Shown here: one piece after another, positions 37,811 to 47,929 of the stretch
How positions within the stretch are numbered: position 1 is the stretch's first letter
Layout: every line of letters starts with the position of its first letter
From: Thauera terpenica 58Eu
Lineage (GTDB): Bacteria > Pseudomonadota > Gammaproteobacteria > Burkholderiales > Rhodocyclaceae
Direction of reading: 5' to 3'
DNA: 64,000 nucleotides
NCBI RefSeq assembly: GCF_000443165.1
Contig: NZ_ATJV01000001.1
Coordinates: 62,001 to 126,000 of the forward strand
The notes under the pieces: model-generated
What the model was told of the DNA's origin: nothing
Databases searched by the model: none
The model's input: only the letters and a program-made list of their open reading frames with translations
Program-made: the position numbers and the translations under genes

Positions 37811-38992
37811 TTAACGGGTTTCGCTGAACAGCTCGCGGCCGACCAGCATGCGACGAATCTCGCTGGTGCCGGCGCCGATCTCGTACAACTTGGCGTCACG
37901 CCACAAACGGCCAGCTGCATAGTCATTGGTATAGCCCACGCCGCCCAGGGTCTGGATGGCTTCACCCGCCATCCAGGTGGCCTTTTCGGCTGTGTAGAGG
38001 ATGACGCCGGCCGCGTCCTTGCGCAGCGAGCGCGCATGATCGGCACGATCGCAAGCCTGGCCCACGGCGTAGGCATAGGCACGGCAGGCCGACCAGGTGG
38101 AGTAGAGGTCGGCGACCTTGCCCTGCATGAGCTGGAATTCGCCGATCGGGGTGTCGAACTGCTTGCGCTCGTGCAGATAGGGCACGACCACATCCATGCA
38201 CGCGGCCATGATGCCCAGCGGGCCGCCCGACAGCACAGCACGCTCGTAGTCCAGGCCCGACATCAGCACCTGCACGCCGCGGCCGATGTTGGCTTCACCG
38301 CCGAGCACGTTCTCGACCGGCACTTCGACGTCGTCGAAGTAGAGCGGGAAGGTGTTGGAGCCGCGCATGCCCAGCTTGTCCAGATGGGGGCCGTGGGAAA
38401 AGCCCTTCATGCCCTTCTCGATGATGAAGGCGGTGATGCCCTTGGCGCCGGCGTTGATGTCGGTCTTGGCATACACCACCAGAGTGTCGGCGTCGCCGCC
38501 GTTGGTGATCCACATCTTGGCGCCGTTGAGCACGAAGTGCCCACCCTTGCGGTCGGCACGCAGCTTCATCGACACCACGTCAGAGCCGGCATTGGGTTCC
38601 GACATTGCCAGCGCGCCGACCTGATCGCCCGAGATCAACCCGGGCAGATACTTCTGCTTCTGCGCCTCGGTGCCGTTGCGACGGATCTGGTTGATGCACA
38701 GATTGGAGTGCGCGCCGTAGGACAGACCCACCGAAGCAGAGGCGCGCGAGATCTCTTCCATCGCCACGATGTGGGCGAGGTAGCCCATGTCGGTGCCGCC
38801 GTACTCCTCACCCACCGTCATCCCGTGCACGCCAAGATCGCCAAGCTTCTTCCACAGGTCCGCGGGGAATTCGTTGCTGCGGTCGATCTCCGCCGCGCGC
38901 GGCGCGATCTCCGCGGCACAGAAGGCCTGCAGCGTGTCGCGCAGGGCGTCGATGGTCTCGCCGAGGTTGAAGTTCAGGCTGGGCACGTTCAT
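37811..38992 (-). CDS. ivd: Isovaleryl-CoA dehydrogenase
   Basis: 393 residues of the acyl-CoA dehydrogenase family. The catalytic base fits the isovaleryl type: Glu250 in [15 protein letters not shown], while the C-terminal site where other members have Glu is Gly ([10 protein letters not shown]). FAD-binding [13 protein letters not shown] and [11 protein letters not shown] are present. Oxidises isovaleryl-CoA to 3-methylcrotonyl-CoA, passing electrons to ETF. First gene of the minus-strand liu operon; 15 bp before mccB. Confidence 0.96.
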
Positions 38993-39103
38993 GGGTGTCT
39001 CCTTCTTGAGGTTGTGCTGGCGCAGAGGGCTCGCAACGCAGATCCATTATGGACGGCGCATGCCCGACGATGAATGCAGATTAAGCGTAGAGCGTGATCG
39101 GTG

Positions 39104-39131
39104 CGTGCCATCAGGGTTGCAATTCGTGCCA
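39104..39131. promoter_or_regulatory. Direct repeats, possible AraC-type operator
   Basis: cgtgcca occurs at 39104-39110 and again at 39125-39131, exactly 21 bp apart (two helical turns), in the 160-bp gap between divergent ivd and the AraC-type gene. This spacing suits AraC-family half-sites, but the motif is short and could be chance. Confidence 0.3.
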
Positions 39132-39152
39132 CGCGGACTAGGATTGCGGCAC

Positions 39153-40241
39153 ATGAAAATCCTCGCCCCCTCTGCCGCCGAACTCAGCCGTGGCCGCGCC
39201 GCCACGCCGATCGCCTTCATCCGCGCGATCGTCCTTGGCTACCGCCTGCGCGGGATGGATCCGGCGAGCGCGCTGGCGCAGGCGCAGATCCCGCCAGCGC
39301 TGCTGGACGATCCGCAAGCGTGCGTGACCGCGGCGCAGATGGAGTTGTTGTCGGGCCTGGCGATGCAGGCACTCGACGACGAGGCGCTGGGCTGGTTCTC
39401 TCGCCGCCTGCCGTGGGGCAGCTACGGCATGCTGTGCCGGGCCTCGCTCAGCGCACCGACGCTGGAGGTCGCGCTCAAGCGCTGGTGTCGCCACCACCGC
39501 CTGCTCACCGAGGACATCGTGTTCGAGCTCGTCCCGCCGCGTCTTCAACAGCGCGCCAGCGCCACGATTCGCGTCATCGAACACCGCGCACTGGGCGAGC
39601 TGCGCGAGTTCTGCCTGGTCAGCACCCTGCGCTACCTGCTGGGCTACGCCTGCTGGCTGGTCGATTCGCGCATCGCGCTCACCGAGGCCGCCTTCCCCTT
39701 CCCTGCGCCGGCGCACGCCGAGGCCTACGCCTACCTGTTCGCCGGCCCGGCGCGCTTTTCCGCCCAGGCAGCGGCGATCAGCTTCGACGCGCGCTACCTG
39801 GCGCTGCCGGTGCGCCGCGACGAGAAGGCGCTGCAGACCATGTTGCAGCACGCGCTGCCACTCACCGTATTGCAATACCGCCGCGACCGCCTGCTCGTGC
39901 ACAGCGTCAGCCAGCTCCTCGCCGCTGACCCTGCCGCCGCTCACACCGCAGACGACATCGCCGCCCAACTCAACACCTCGGTACGCACGCTGCACCGGCA
40001 GTTGAAGGAGGAAGGTGTATCGCTGCAGCGCTTGAAGAACGAGGTGCGACGTGAGCGGGCAGTCGGGCTGCTACTGCAGACCGACAAGCCGGTGAAACAG
40101 GTGGCCGCAGCAGTCGGCTTTGACAGTGAGAAGAGCTTTGCGCGGGCGTTTCGGGAATGGACAGGGATGGCGCCAAGTGCTCTCAGGGCGGGCAAGCCCG
40201 AGCCGCCCGCACACCAACTGACGCCTGGACTCAGGCCGTGA
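39153..40241 (+). CDS. AraC-family transcriptional regulator, divergent to liu operon
   Basis: 362 residues from MKILAPSAAELSRG. The N-terminal two-thirds (about 20-215) is the arabinose-binding-like domain of OruR/ArgR-type regulators (IVLGYRLRGMDPASALAQAQIP, WGSYGMLCRASLSAPTL). The C-terminal AraC DNA-binding domain has TADDIAAQLNTSVRTLHRQLKEEG and VKQVAAAVGFDSEKSFARAFREWTG. Divergent placement suggests it controls isovalerate/leucine use. The 3' end overlaps the convergent OsmC gene by 11 bp. Confidence 0.92.
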   Translation: MKILAPSAAELSRGRAATPIAFIRAIVLGYRLRGMDPASALAQAQIPPALLDDPQACVTAAQMELLSGLAMQALDDEALGWFSRRLPWGSYGMLCRASLSAPTLEVALKRWCRHHRLLTEDIVFELVPPRLQQRASATIRVIEHRALGELREFCLVSTLRYLLGYACWLVDSRIALTEAAFPFPAPAHAEAYAYLFAGPARFSAQAAAISFDARYLALPVRRDEKALQTMLQHALPLTVLQYRRDRLLVHSVSQLLAADPAAAHTADDIAAQLNTSVRTLHRQLKEEGVSLQRLKNEVRRERAVGLLLQTDKPVKQVAAAVGFDSEKSFARAFREWTGMAPSALRAGKPEPPAHQLTPGLRP

Positions 40242-43180: not shown

Positions 43181-44314
43181 TCAACCCGCCAGCGCGCGTC
43201 CGATCACCAGTTTCTGGATGTCGCTGGCACCTTCGTAGATCTGGCACACGCGCACATCACGATAGATGCGCTCGACCGGGAAGTCGGTGACATAGCCGTA
43301 GCCGCCATGCACCTGGATGGCGTCCGAGCACACACGCTCGGCCATTTCCGAGGCGAACAGCTTGGCCATCGAGGCTTCCTTCAGACAGGGGCGACCGGCA
43401 TCCTTCAGGCTGGCGGCGTGCCATACGAGCTGACGCGCAGCTTCGAGCTGGGTCGCCATGTCGGCGAGGCGGAAGTTGACCGCCTGGTGCTCGAAGATCG
43501 GCTTGCCGAAGCTCTCGCGCTCCAGTGCGTACTTGACCGCGGCCTCCAGCGCGGCACGCGCCATGCCCAGGCACTGCGCGGCGATGCCGATACGACCGGC
43601 TTCGAGATTGGCGAGCGCGATCTTGTAGCCCTGGCCTTCGTCGCCGATCATCGAGTCGGCCGGGATGCGGCAGTTCTCGAGCAGGATCTGCGTGGTGTCG
43701 GAGGCCTTCTGCCCCATCTTCTCTTCAATGCGGCCAACCTGGTAGCCGGGCGCATCCGCCGGCACCAGGAAGCAGCTGATGCCCTTCTTGCCCGCCGCCT
43801 TGTCGGTGACCGCAAACACGATCGCCATGTCGGCGTGCTTGCCCGAGGTGATGAACTGCTTCACCCCGTTGAGCACCCACTCGTCGCCCTCGCGCACCGC
43901 CGAGGTCCGGATGGCGGCAGCGTCCGAACCCACGTGCGGCTCGGTGAGGCAGAAGCAGCCGAGCTTTTCACCACGCGCCAGGGGCTTGAGCCAGGCTTCC
44001 TTTTGCGCGTCATTGCCGAAGCGGTTGAGGATGCCGCAGGGCAGCGAGTTCTGCACGCTGACGATGGTCGAGGTGGCACCGTCACCGGCGGCGATCTCTT
44101 CCAGCGTCAGCACCAGGCTCATGTAGTCCATGCCGGCGCCGTCCCATTCCTCGGGCACCACCATGCCGAGCGCGCCGAGCGCGGCGAGTTCATTGAGCGC
44201 TTCGCGCGGGAAAGTGTGGTTGCGGTCCCATTCGGCAGCAAAGGGGGCCAGGCGCTCCTGCGCGAAAGCGCGCATCGAGTCGCGAATGAGTTCCTGCTCG
44301 TCAGTCAGAATCAT
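43181..44314 (-). CDS. Acyl-CoA dehydrogenase (short/medium-chain type)
   Basis: 377 residues. FCLTEPHVGSDAAAIRT and KQFITSGKHADMAIVFAV are the FAD/substrate motifs; catalytic Glu361 lies in the C-terminal IYEGASDIQK, as in butyryl- and medium-chain enzymes and unlike isovaleryl-CoA dehydrogenase. It introduces a 2,3-double bond and feeds ETF. Last gene of the minus-strand operon with thiolase, GNAT-carbonic anhydrase and thioesterase. Confidence 0.93.
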   Translation of the reverse strand: MILTDEQELIRDSMRAFAQERLAPFAAEWDRNHTFPREALNELAALGALGMVVPEEWDGAGMDYMSLVLTLEEIAAGDGATSTIVSVQNSLPCGILNRFGNDAQKEAWLKPLARGEKLGCFCLTEPHVGSDAAAIRTSAVREGDEWVLNGVKQFITSGKHADMAIVFAVTDKAAGKKGISCFLVPADAPGYQVGRIEEKMGQKASDTTQILLENCRIPADSMIGDEGQGYKIALANLEAGRIGIAAQCLGMARAALEAAVKYALERESFGKPIFEHQAVNFRLADMATQLEAARQLVWHAASLKDAGRPCLKEASMAKLFASEMAERVCSDAIQVHGGYGYVTDFPVERIYRDVRVCQIYEGASDIQKLVIGRALAG

Positions 44315-44460: not shown

Positions 44461-45672
44461 TCAGCCGCCGCAGCCCACCGCGGCTTCGACCTCGATCGCC
44501 ATTGCGGTTGCCTCGCCACCACCGATGCACAGGCTGGCCACACCACGCTTCAGACCACGCTTGCGCAGCGCGCCGATCAGCGTCACCAGGATGCGCGCGC
44601 CCGAAGCGCCGATCGGATGGCCCAACGCGCAGGCGCCACCATTGACGTTAACCTTGTCGTGCGGCAACTTCATCTCGTGCATCGCCGCCATGGTGACGAC
44701 CGCGAACGCCTCGTTGATCTCCCACAGATCGACCTCATCCGTGCTCCAGCCGGCCTTGGCCAGCACCTTCTGCATGGCACCCACCGGGGCGGTGGTAAAC
44801 AGCGCCGGCTCTTGTGCGTGGTTGGCGTGGCCGACGATGGTGGCAAGCGGCTTGAGGCCGAGCTTTTCGGCTGTCGATTTGCGCATCAGCACCAGCGCTG
44901 CCGCGCCGTCCGAGATCGAGCTGGAGTTCGCCGGCGTCACCGTGCCGTCCTTCTTGAAGGCCGGCTTCAGGCTGCCGATCTTCTCGATCTGGGCCTTGAG
45001 CGGCTGCTCATCGTGGTCGATGACAACATCGCCCTTGCGCCCCGACACGGTCACCGGCACCACTTCCCAGGCGAAGTCACCGCCCTTGATCGCCGCCTGC
45101 GCGCGCGTGGTCGAGGCAACGGCGAACTCATCCTGCGCCTCGCGCGTGAAGTTGAAGCTGGTCGCGCAATCCTCGGCAAAAGTGCCCATCAGGCGGCCCT
45201 TGCTCTCCTTGGAATAGCTGTCCTCAAGCCCGTCGAGGAACATGTGATCCATCATCTGGCCATGGCCCAGGCGGTAGCCGCCGCGCGCCTTGGGCAGCAG
45301 ATAGGGCGCATTGGACATCGACTCCATGCCGCCCGCGACCACGACCTCGCTGCTGCCGGCCAGGATCAGGTCATGCGCCAGCATCGCGGCTTTCATGCCG
45401 GAACCGCACACCTTGCTCACCGTGCTGCAGGCCACCGACAGCGGCAGGCCGGCGCCGATCGCAGCCTGGCGAGCGGGCGCCTGGCCCAGTCCGGCGGGTA
45501 GCACGCAGCCCATCATGACCTCCTGCACCTGCTCGGGCTGGAGACCGGCGCGCTCGACCGCGGCCTTGATGGCGATGGCGCCCAGCTGCGGCGCGGACAC
45601 GCTGGACAGATCACCCTGGAAGCCACCCAGCGGGGTGCGGGCGACGGAAACGATGACGACGGGATCGGACAT
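44461..45672 (-). CDS. Acetyl-CoA acetyltransferase (thiolase)
   Basis: 403 residues from MSDPVVIVSVARTPLGGF. Thiolase fold with nucleophile Cys89 in STVSKVCGSGMKAAM, then GGMESMSNAPYLLP, NVNGGACALGHPIGASGARI and the second Cys in CIGGGEATAMAIE. It condenses or cleaves acetoacetyl-CoA (AtoB/PhaA type); here it could finish leucine or fatty-acid breakdown or supply acetoacetyl-CoA for PHA. 146 bp before the acyl-CoA dehydrogenase, 37 bp after the fusion gene. Confidence 0.94.
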   Translation of the reverse strand: MSDPVVIVSVARTPLGGFQGDLSSVSAPQLGAIAIKAAVERAGLQPEQVQEVMMGCVLPAGLGQAPARQAAIGAGLPLSVACSTVSKVCGSGMKAAMLAHDLILAGSSEVVVAGGMESMSNAPYLLPKARGGYRLGHGQMMDHMFLDGLEDSYSKESKGRLMGTFAEDCATSFNFTREAQDEFAVASTTRAQAAIKGGDFAWEVVPVTVSGRKGDVVIDHDEQPLKAQIEKIGSLKPAFKKDGTVTPANSSSISDGAAALVLMRKSTAEKLGLKPLATIVGHANHAQEPALFTTAPVGAMQKVLAKAGWSTDEVDLWEINEAFAVVTMAAMHEMKLPHDKVNVNGGACALGHPIGASGARILVTLIGALRKRGLKRGVASLCIGGGEATAMAIEVEAAVGCGG

Positions 45673-45709: not shown

Positions 45710-46852
45710 TCAGCCTTCGAGCGCTTCGAGGGCCGCGGCATAGCGCGGCAAGAGATCTTCACTGCGGCTGAGATTCAGCCCCAGGTCGCGGATGACGCCG
45801 TCCTTCAGACCATAGATCCAGCCGTGCACGGTGAGGCACTGCCCGCGCTGCCAGGCGTCCTGCACGACAATCGTCTGCGCCACATTGGCGACCTGCTCGA
45901 TGACGTTGAGCTCGCACAAACGGTCGTGGCGCAGCTCGAGCGGCAAAGCGTCGACCTTACTGACATGGCGCAGATGCACGTCCTGCACGTGGCGCAACCA
46001 CAGATCGACCAGACCGACGCGATCGCGGTCGAGCGCAGCCTTGACGCCGCCACAGCCGTAATGCCCCACCACCATGATGTGCTTCACCTTCAACACGTCC
46101 ACCGCATACTGGATCACCGAGAGGCAGTTCAGGTCGGTATGCACCACCACATTGGCGATGTTGCGATGGACAAAGACCTCGCCCGGCAGCAGGCCAACGA
46201 TCTGGTTGGCGGGGACGCGCGAATCGGAGCAGCCGATCCAGAGATACTCGGGGTTCTGCAACTGCGCCAGCTTGCCGAAGAAACCGCCGTCGATCTGCTG
46301 CATCTGCCGCGACCAGGCTTGGTTGTAGTCAAACAGATGGAACAGGTTCTCGTTACACACCGCACCCTCGCACCACTGCGACAGGTCCAGTGTGAGGAAG
46401 ATCGTGCCCTCGATCGGTGTCGGGTAGTAGGCCGGCGCCTCGGTAAAGCCCAGCTCGCGGTAAAGCTTCACCGCAATCCGCATCATCGGCAGGGTGTCGA
46501 GCAGGATGCGCCGATAACCCAGCGCCTGCGCCGCCTTGATGGCTTGCAAGGCGAGCTGCCGTCCCAGACCGCGGCCACGCGCATCGGGGTCGACGTAGAG
46601 GCGCTTCATCTCGCAGACACCTTCGGAGAAGCGGCGGATCCCCACACAGCCTGCGGGCCGGCCATCGATCTCGGCGAAGAACAGGCGCCCATCGGCTTCG
46701 CCGTAGGCCCCTGGCAGATTCGCCAGTTCGTCGGCAAAACCCTGAAAGCTCAGGTCCACCCCCAGCCATGCGGCATAGTTGCGAAAGAATTGGCGCACGT
46801 GCTCCAACTCGGTGGTGTCAGATGCGCTCAGAGCGCGCAGACTCATACTCAT
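45710..46852 (-). CDS. Fusion: GNAT N-acetyltransferase + beta-carbonic anhydrase
   Basis: 380 residues in one uninterrupted frame, GAGGAGG before the ATG. Residues 1-155 are a GNAT domain: MKRLYVDPDARGRGLGRQLA has the acetyl-CoA loop (about 92-100) and KLYRELGF the C-terminal motif. Residues about 168-380 closely follow E. coli Can: GCSDSRVPA gives zinc ligand Cys208 and Asp210/Arg212, GHYGCGG gives His264 and Cys267, then CELNVIEQVANV and HGWIYGLKDG. Both halves look active. It would hydrate CO2 and acetylate an unknown amine. Lies between thioesterase and thiolase genes. Confidence 0.93.
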   Translation of the reverse strand: MSMSLRALSASDTTELEHVRQFFRNYAAWLGVDLSFQGFADELANLPGAYGEADGRLFFAEIDGRPAGCVGIRRFSEGVCEMKRLYVDPDARGRGLGRQLALQAIKAAQALGYRRILLDTLPMMRIAVKLYRELGFTEAPAYYPTPIEGTIFLTLDLSQWCEGAVCNENLFHLFDYNQAWSRQMQQIDGGFFGKLAQLQNPEYLWIGCSDSRVPANQIVGLLPGEVFVHRNIANVVVHTDLNCLSVIQYAVDVLKVKHIMVVGHYGCGGVKAALDRDRVGLVDLWLRHVQDVHLRHVSKVDALPLELRHDRLCELNVIEQVANVAQTIVVQDAWQRGQCLTVHGWIYGLKDGVIRDLGLNLSRSEDLLPRYAAALEALEG

Positions 46853-46910: not shown

Positions 46911-47387
46911 TCAGGCTGTGCGCTCCTTCTTGCCGTGCATGACCATGATGGTTTGCTGCATGATGGCGCACAAGGTCGATCGCTCGTCGCGGATCGCGAA
47001 CACCTCGGCGCGGGTGATGATGAGCGTGCGGCCTGGCTTGATCACTTCACCGCGCGCGACCAGGTGCTGGCCGTCGGCGGGCGCGACCAGGTTCAACTTG
47101 TACTCCACCGTCAGCACGCTGGCATCGGCCGCGGTCAGTGTGTTGGCGGCATAGCCGGCAGCCGAGTCGGCGATCATGCCGACCACACCGCCATGAATAT
47201 AACCGTGCTGCTGGGTGATCTCCGGCTTGAGAGGCAGGTGGATCTCGGTGAAACCGGGTTCGACCACCATGAGGCGGGCACCGATCAGCTCCATGGCGTG
47301 CTGCAGCGCAAAGCTGGCATGCACGCGCGCGGCGTATTCAGGGTCACGGGGCTGGAACTGCGCCATATCAATTCGCATCGCTTTCAT
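46911..47387 (-). CDS. PaaI-type hotdog thioesterase
   Basis: 158 residues (starts at Met4 or Met8 are also possible; no ribosome site decides). Hotdog fold with QQHGYIHGGVVGMIADSAAGYA, the PaaI/YdiI motif, and TVEYKLNLVAPADGQHLVARGEV. Such enzymes release CoA from stalled acyl-CoA intermediates. First gene of the operon; a near-perfect ACGT palindrome lies 25 bp upstream. Confidence 0.88.
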   Translation of the reverse strand: MKAMRIDMAQFQPRDPEYAARVHASFALQHAMELIGARLMVVEPGFTEIHLPLKPEITQQHGYIHGGVVGMIADSAAGYAANTLTAADASVLTVEYKLNLVAPADGQHLVARGEVIKPGRTLIITRAEVFAIRDERSTLCAIMQQTIMVMHGKKERTA

Positions 47388-47411
47388 CTCAGTGGTGGAT
47401 ATTCTCTCTGT

Positions 47412-47433
47412 TTTACGTTAACGTCAACGTAAA
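47412..47433. promoter_or_regulatory. 22-bp palindrome, probable LiuR-type operator
   Basis: The sequence reads tttacgttaac at its left end and gtcaacgtaaa at its right; ten of eleven base pairs are symmetric. It lies between the MerR-type gene and the thioesterase gene. On the minus strand it contains TTGACG, a good -35 box for the thioesterase operon, so a bound MerR-type dimer would sit on the promoter. ACGT-centred palindromes are, as I recall, the operator type of LiuR regulators; the match needs a matrix check. Confidence 0.6.
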
Positions 47434-47466: not shown

Positions 47467-47910
47467 TCAGTCGACACCGGCCCGGTCGATGCGTCGCACC
47501 AGCTCCGCCCTGGCCGCTGCTGCGCCCTCGGCGTTATGTCCGAGCAAGGCATGACACTGCTGCTCGAGCATGTCGATCTCGAGCAGCACGGCTTCGATGT
47601 CCAGACGCTGTTGTTCCATCGCAGCACGCCGGGCAGCAAGCACGCTGAGAAAGCGCTCGAGCTGCGGCGCAGTGTTACGAACCCCGCCGTACATGTCGAG
47701 CAGCTCACCAACTTCGGCAAGAGAAAGCCCCAGGCGTTTGCCGCGCAAAGTGAGCTTGAGCCGGGTGCGATCGGCCTTGGTGTACACCCGGGCTCGACCG
47801 GAACGAGCCGGGGTGAGCAGGCCCTGATCCTCGTAGAAGCGGATCGCGCGCGGGGTGATGTCGAACTCGCGCGCAAGCTCGGTAATGGTGTAGGTTTGTT
47901 CTTCGCCCAT
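47467..47910 (-). CDS. liuR: MerR-family regulator, LiuR-like
   Basis: 147 residues from MGEEQTYTITELAREF with GGAAG upstream. The winged-helix N-terminus (DITPRAIRFYEDQGLLTPARSG) is followed by LKLTLRGKRLGLSLAEVGELLDMY and a C-terminal dimerisation coiled coil with LEQQC, very like LiuR, the repressor of branched-chain amino-acid and acyl-CoA breakdown genes in proteobacteria. It lacks the metal-binding Cys cluster of MerR/CueR. Located directly before the thioesterase-thiolase operon. Confidence 0.8.
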   Translation of the reverse strand: MGEEQTYTITELAREFDITPRAIRFYEDQGLLTPARSGRARVYTKADRTRLKLTLRGKRLGLSLAEVGELLDMYGGVRNTAPQLERFLSVLAARRAAMEQQRLDIEAVLLEIDMLEQQCHALLGHNAEGAAAARAELVRRIDRAGVD

Positions 47911-47929
47911 GGTCTTCCGTGATTGCCAA

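Follow-up and report, generated by a model that had tools for sequence, protein, structure and literature searches.

A predicted LiuR operator in front of a thioesterase-thiolase operon

The window analysed here is a stretch of 64,000 nucleotides from Thauera terpenica 58Eu. On its minus strand lies a gene for a LiuR-like regulator of the MerR family (47467..47913), identified from NCBIfam MerR-type models (E-values down to 5.9e-15, none above cutoff), from matches to MerR-family chains in the PDB (best E 1.6e-9), and from its relatives. The protein is 93% identical to its counterpart in Thauera linaloolentis and falls inside a LiuR clade of 134 rows in our tree. A gap of 79 bp separates the gene from that of a hotdog-fold, PaaI-like thioesterase on the same strand (paaI; 46911..47387; TIGR00369 above cutoff). 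This is followed on the minus strand by genes for a fused GNAT acetyltransferase and beta-carbonic anhydrase (45710..46852; NF007756 above cutoff for residues 173-378, GNAT-type matches below cutoff for about residues 46-148), a thiolase of the acetyl-CoA C-acetyltransferase type (44461..45672; NF005404 above cutoff), and a short/branched-chain acyl-CoA dehydrogenase (43181..44314). From their presumed substrates, we propose that the last two act as 2-methylacetoacetyl-CoA thiolase and 2-methylbutyryl-CoA dehydrogenase, respectively; the dehydrogenase is a better match to short-chain enzymes than to the short/branched-chain one. The acetyltransferase-carbonic anhydrase fusion is a single open frame, which aligns over its full length in other genomes of the genus, and it may supply bicarbonate to acyl-CoA carboxylases.

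The 79-bp gap holds a 22-bp site (47412..47433) that we predict to be a LiuR operator. Read on the minus strand from 47433 to 47412, its sequence is TTTACGTTGACGTTAACGTAAA, which contains three ACGT units with a period of 6 bp. An earlier reading of the sequence alone had described a near-perfect ACGT palindrome at these positions, lying between the liuR-like and thioesterase genes and containing TTGACG on the minus strand. A check of the sequence bore out all of this, with 10 of the 11 pairs being symmetric and TTGACG running from 47427 to 47422. Bare symmetry of this degree is at the level of chance: the window contains three 22-mers with at least 10 of 11 symmetric pairs, and 20 first-order Markov sequences contain 2.05 on average. 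The sequence motif, in contrast, is far above it. Scored with a matrix that we built from 36 distinct non-Zoogloeaceae sites at other liuR loci (derived independently of the published ILV-box motif; maximum 42.4, training range 27.7-42.4), the site reaches 37.0, while the best unrelated place in the window scores 6.8 and two out-of-register overlaps of the site with itself score 15.0 and 6.0. The matrix score, which the sequence-only reading had named together with conservation as the check on its proposal, is therefore not a poor one, and the palindrome is conserved, as detailed below.

The box is conserved beside liuR

Conservation was examined in the best 80 of 461 confirmed relatives obtained by scanning species genomes. 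In 72 of these 80 loci, a box was present 350-700 bp after the start of liuR at no more than 2 mismatches; a box upstream of liuR was found in 51 at no more than 3 mismatches, and all 80 carried one in either position. Flanking sequence more than 1.5 kb away, 1.13 Mb in all, contained a single match when up to 3 mismatches were allowed. The order mbl-liuR-box was the same in most loci. Many Burkholderiales have a box upstream of liuR itself, but the Thauera window (best 8 mismatches) and the 18 Zoogloeaceae-type loci (L002-L019; 0/18) do not. Within the genus, all 29 genomes contained at least one site at up to 2 mismatches, while the reversed control matched in only one. Together with three other sites before genes that would suit one type of pathway, the conservation in all of the best 80 of 461 relatives supports, as a prediction, the earlier proposal that the palindrome serves the adjacent LiuR-like MerR protein as its operator.

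Promoter geometry suggests repression

The sequence-only reading had further placed the palindrome over the promoter of the thioesterase-thiolase operon. Such an overlap is clear in relatives from Cupriavidus/Ralstonia and the Oxalobacteraceae, while in the window itself the promoter elements are limited to a -35-like TTGACG and a weak -10. For this comparison, promoters were assigned to groups from organism names (19 Cupriavidus/Ralstonia, 27 Oxalobacteraceae-type, 18 Zoogloeaceae-type, and 8 other), and the placement of the -10 was read from the mean number of matches to the -10 hexamer at each offset. In the Cupriavidus/Ralstonia promoters, the -10 averages 5.0 of 6 matches and starts directly after the box; the TTGACG of the first unit then takes the -35 position, and the spacer is 16 bp long. 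In the Oxalobacteraceae-type promoters, it averages 4.63 of 6 and starts seven bases further on, so that the -35 falls on the second unit and the spacer measures 17 bp. No comparably clear peak was seen in the Zoogloeaceae-type promoters (highest 3.0) or in the other 8 (3.38 of 6). In the window, the -35-like TTGACG inside the operator (47422..47427, minus strand) has the register of the Oxalobacteraceae relatives, and a weak, putative -10-like GAATAT (47399..47404, minus strand; 3 of 6 matches) stands 17 bp after it; the 18 Zoogloeaceae-type promoters show no peak at this offset.

In the relatives, the box extends over the -35 and the spacer of promoters with normal spacing, as would suit a repressor, and this geometry suggests repression. 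At the window promoter, with its weak GAATAT, repression would follow by analogy. We propose that a LiuR dimer would bind the ACGT-repeat box next to its own gene, so that the bound box would overlap the -35 of the promoter of the thioesterase, carbonic anhydrase, thiolase, and acyl-CoA dehydrogenase genes, and RNA polymerase would be blocked. An inducer, probably a branched acyl-CoA, would then release LiuR.

An opposite role, in which LiuR binds the same operator as a classical MerR activator and untwists an over-long spacer, is improbable to our mind. It would suit a protein that is MerR-family by sequence and a box that sits at a promoter, and with a spacing of 19 bp, counted from the first unit, the Cupriavidus/Ralstonia promoters retain an average of 3.21 of 6 -10 matches. 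This is, however, a lesser value in that group; the best spacers are 16 bp there and 17 bp in the Oxalobacteraceae, the box lies over the -35 rather than within the spacer, and neither the Zoogloeaceae-type nor the other promoters give an equally clear peak. Metal-type MerR activators such as CueR, ZntR, and MerR resemble the window regulator in belonging to the MerR family by sequence, but the latter falls below all curated cutoffs, and the 16-17-bp spacers of the two groups of relatives differ from the 19-20 bp of these activators.

Repression by LiuR also has precedent. The LiuR/ILV-box regulon of Proteobacteria (Kazakov et al. 2009, as described in excerpts of PMC3223726, PMC5343134, and PMC7238569) is alike in its MerR-family regulator, in an operator near the regulator's own gene, and in targets for branched-chain amino acid breakdown; the excerpts of PMC3223726 describe LiuR as a MerR-family repressor of Ile/Leu/Val utilisation, and those of PMC8871633 describe the LiuR of P. 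aeruginosa as a repressor as well. LiuR is not mentioned in the main text of PMC5045206. The palindrome appears to add an example to a known type of operator.

Further sites define a candidate isoleucine-type regulon

A scan of the 4.15-Mb genome for further matches, which the sequence-only reading had suggested, revealed three more intergenic sites, all before genes that fit the pathway. With TTTACGTNNACGTNNACGTAAA and no more than 3 mismatches allowed, 4 places were found, compared with 1 when the pattern was reversed as a control. With TTNACGTTNACGTNAACGTNAA at up to 2 mismatches, the four genomic places were the window, C44, C59, and C2, and the reversed control gave 1 match at up to 3 mismatches. 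All four are intergenic, given the start codons chosen in our analysis. The C44 site (matrix score 34.2) ends about 50 bp before a gene for a short-chain dehydrogenase (sdr) that matches 3-hydroxyacyl-CoA dehydrogenases of the HSD10 type, and the C2 site (28.3) lies upstream of a gene for an enoyl-CoA hydratase (ech; NF006008 above cutoff). The C59 site (30.4) lies upstream of a gene for an acyl-CoA synthetase (acsX), with a nitroreductase-like gene on its opposite side; the best NCBIfam model for the synthetase is MbcS, with a score of 404.5 that is well below the cutoff of 850.

The breakdown of 2-methylbutyryl-CoA in the isoleucine pathway takes four types of enzyme: an acyl-CoA dehydrogenase, an enoyl-CoA hydratase, an HSD10-type dehydrogenase, and a thiolase. 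The window supplies the acyl-CoA dehydrogenase and the thiolase, and sdr and ech the other two types. Judged by enzyme type, it is therefore plausible that the four box-bearing units together serve the isoleucine (2-methylbutyryl-CoA) pathway, and as the box also precedes the HSD10-like dehydrogenase, the enoyl-CoA hydratase, and the synthetase, LiuR would control an isoleucine or 2-methylbutyryl-CoA-like regulon. What is observed upstream of paaI-thl-acad, sdr, ech, and acsX is the presence of boxes, as distinct from demonstrated control.

The same arrangement recurs within the genus. Among the 20 genomes with LiuR, and counting those in which the respective gene was found, a box with no more than 3 mismatches precedes sdr in 20/20, ech in 15/19, and acsX in 12/15 cases; the flank background gives a chance of such a box of about 0.0002 per stretch. 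The exceptions are acsX without a box in 3 of 15 and ech with at least 4 mismatches in 4 of 19. Two genomes without a strong LiuR match (G013 and G023) were counted apart, with boxes at up to 3 mismatches before sdr in 1/1, ech in 0/1, and acsX in 2/2. A truncated acsX of G027 (L368) and a second acsX copy in G003 (L369) were left out of these counts, as were second sdr copies of 72-74% identity in G001, G005, G007, G010, and G023 (L317-L320, and one without a locus).

A distant paralog in genomes without LiuR

At a threshold of E 1e-30, LiuR alone was detected in 20 of the 29 genomes of the genus. In seven others (G001, G002, G004, G009, G014, G017, and G022), a second MerR protein matched strongly and LiuR did not; G013 and G023 had neither, though G013 holds liuR in two pieces. 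Stretches around mbl of G001, G002, G004, G009, G014, and G017 contained no liuR at E 1e-8. In the tree (few columns, midpoint root), this paralog branches on a long stem apart from the LiuR clade of 134 rows, with support of 100/89 and with one other row, L054, on its side. Over the DNA-binding part, the two proteins agree in 39 of 58 residues, including 12 of 14 in the putative recognition helix; over the remainder, they agree in 21 of 60. No NCBIfam model matched the paralog at E 1e-20. Within the family it is rare, being found at E 1e-42 in 5 of 297 genomes and 2 of 68 genera.

The boxes of the LiuR genomes largely persist in these strains. In G001, G009, G014, and G017, liuR is absent between mbl and paaI, while a diverged box with the core TACGTTAACGTTAACGTA is kept before paaI (4/4 examined, 3 mismatches). 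Boxes at 3 mismatches also precede sdr in 5/5 and acsX in 3/4 cases, the fourth having 4; ech is weaker, with 0/6 at up to 4 mismatches and 4/6 at 5. A box precedes the paralog gene itself in G001, G002, and G009, in G004 by coordinates, and in G061 of another genus (L385). Upstream of the gene in G014 there is only a candidate with 4 mismatches, and in G022 the contig ends beside it. The paralog thus seems to have inherited the sites of a lost regulator, LiuR.

These persisting boxes could also be read as general acyl-CoA-responsive sites that serve several regulators, of which LiuR would be only one. In favour of this, 7 of 29 genomes have the paralog and no detected LiuR, and diverged boxes remain among them at sdr, acsX, and paaI in the counts given above; yet the two proteins were never detected together in a genome of the genus, which points to one LiuR-type protein for the box in each genome. 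We consider such a general site about as unlikely as activation by LiuR.

Additional boxes in the paralog genomes lie at genes for anaerobic aromatic metabolism, in stretches that were mostly chosen because a site lay there. A box is located between korA and had-oah in G001, G002, G004, G009, and G014, where the had and oah products of G014 are above the TIGR03201 and TIGR03200 cutoffs, respectively. Another is located between genes for a PadB-like and a CBS-domain protein in G001, G009, G014, and G017 (not in G002 or G004), and a third between rnfA and a NifU-like gene in G001, G002, G009, G014, and G017. The paralog and the boxes at these had-oah/kor, PadB-like, rnf, and NifU-like genes are at L163 4324-4794 and 10265, L164 5759 and 5881, L165 5997 and 10376, L166 3310, and L190 4702 and 9074. 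The names PadB-like, CBS-domain, and NifU-like are readings of the sequences; NCBIfam offered no family for the NifU-like protein, and the models that it gave for the PadB-like one were no more than distant ones of molybdopterin enzymes.

In this subgroup, a distant paralog may have replaced LiuR at the same box, giving one regulator for isoleucine-type and anaerobic aromatic genes (had-oah, 2-oxoacid:acceptor oxidoreductase, PadB-like, rnf, and NifU-like); the paralog would then be a regulator of the Thauera-type had-oah-dch-bcr operon that has gone unrecognised until now. We hold this tentatively, at slightly less than an even chance. Known repressors of CoA-linked aromatic (benzoate) degradation in Betaproteobacteria are BzdR and BoxR, which excerpts of PMC6449761 describe as XRE-type proteins with a shikimate-kinase-like domain, whereas the paralog is of the MerR type. 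According to the same excerpts, had-oah-dch-bcr of Thauera sp. MZ1T is not preceded by any BzdR/BoxR site that this comparative survey could find; five of the paralog genomes, in contrast, have LiuR-type boxes between kor and had-oah. The excerpts also cite earlier work in which both benzoate pathways of Thauera strains come under a single regulator, and we lowered our confidence in the paralog reading because of this. Literature listings yielded no report that we recognised on a MerR regulator of the had-oah-dch-bcr pathway, nor one on LiuR rewiring or isoleucine regulation. Going beyond a known operator type, the paralog with its predicted regulatory role is the more novel part of this analysis: it is a testable candidate for the control of anaerobic benzoyl-CoA degradation in Thauera, where the survey, as excerpted, saw no BzdR/BoxR site (PMC6449761).

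The leucine operon is uncoupled from the box

A leucine-type operon in the window begins with an ivd-like gene (37811..38992, minus strand). The sequence-only reading had found no such site before this ivd-mccB operon, and that holds: the best place within 38700-39300 has 8 mismatches. The divergent AraC-type gene that it had noted is likewise present (39153..40241, plus strand), and we propose it as the regulator of the leucine operon. Of the 29 genomes of the genus, 3 gave no ivd match at the threshold; among the 26 ivd loci of the others, none has a box (fewest mismatches 6, best matrix score 1.9), and the divergent AraC gene accompanies 24, all but those of G002 and G004. Both counts support the earlier suggestion that the two acyl-CoA operons are under different control. 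The ivd-mcc operon stands apart, without a box, and is probably run by its divergent AraC-type gene.

Outside the group, in the liuR-ivd operons of Cupriavidus, Ralstonia, Oxalobacteraceae, and others (L020-L081), the layout of liuR followed by the box is the same, with mbl mostly divergent. There, ivd comes after liuR in 62/62 loci, whereas in the window paaI, the carbonic anhydrase gene, the thiolase gene, and the acyl-CoA dehydrogenase gene follow and ivd lies elsewhere; we conclude that ivd has been uncoupled in this group. Among the 18 Zoogloeaceae-type loci, 16 have paaI, the gene for the carbonic anhydrase, or that for the thiolase behind the box, and ivd is not among the genes found; the other two (L009 and L016) end after paaI and are uninformative on ivd. 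Six of the 18 (L008, L011, L012, L013, L017, and L019, of the Aromatoleum and Azoarcus types) have liuC-like genes further on, on the same strand, and five of these six also have hmgL- or acs-like genes on that strand. The separation is therefore incomplete there, and part of the leucine branch may still stand behind the box in these six loci.

To cover the family, 49 further loci were selected by their LiuR protein rather than by the site (the best 30 of 103, and 19 picked from the rest), and all 49 have a box at up to 3 mismatches. Among the best 30 of 103, paaI and then ivd follow in 7, 22 are without ivd, and 1 is cut off; among the other 19, ivd is present in 17 and absent in 2, so that ivd follows liuR in 24 of 49 in total. 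The coupled and uncoupled states are intermixed on the tree.

LiuR might still control the leucine operon, through a diverged site or by read-through from the upstream operon, given that the two operons share a strand in the window, at a distance of about 4 kb. Against this, matrix scores in the 26 ivd loci go no higher than 1.9 and mismatches no lower than 6, a divergent AraC gene of its own accompanies ivd in 24 of these loci, and the plus-strand araC gene separates the two operons; we rate this somewhat lower still than the activator or the general site. A chance palindrome without function, for which only its chance-level symmetry would speak, is practically ruled out by the box beside liuR in 80/80 loci (the best 80 of 461) and by the enrichment over background.

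The site, its conservation, the gene neighbourhoods, and the absence of a box at ivd come directly from the computation. Around them we consider it very probable that the explanation as a whole, a LiuR operator with an isoleucine-type regulon and a boxless ivd operon, is right, with binding, repression, inducer, substrates, and the role of AraC as its inferred parts. Compared with the LiuR/ILV-box regulon as excerpted above, the differences are that the ivd operon is boxless here and that the targets resemble the isoleucine branch plus an acyl-CoA synthetase, so the regulon would be of unusual shape. Its interest lies in a branched-chain amino acid regulon that is split within one family, in which the regulator keeps the isoleucine-like part and ivd-mcc no longer has a box.

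Other occurrences of the box and of ivd

In G002 and G004 (L161, L162, and L374), ivd adjoins mbl-phaC, the place of liuR-paaI in other genomes of the genus, and the DNA examined there contained no liuR, box, or AraC gene. In the incomplete genome G013 (L386 666-1208), the two pieces in which liuR matches reflect an interruption in the gene or in the assembly, and the adjoining box is intact (1 mismatch). In the window genome, matches with 3 mismatches at C35 and C70 were rejected as operators, since they lie inside open frames; their matrix scores are 16.6 and 18.6.

In two paralog genomes, a box closely follows the 3' end of one and the same gene, perfect in one genome (L167 4985) and with 2 mismatches in the other (L382 418); this gene possibly encodes a U32-type peptidase. 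Three genomes of the genus (L175 5037, L121 4996, and L127 254) have a box at the 3' end of an AraC-type gene beside an IcmF-like gene, and in two of these the same box precedes a PAS-kinase-like gene, the names again being given by reading.
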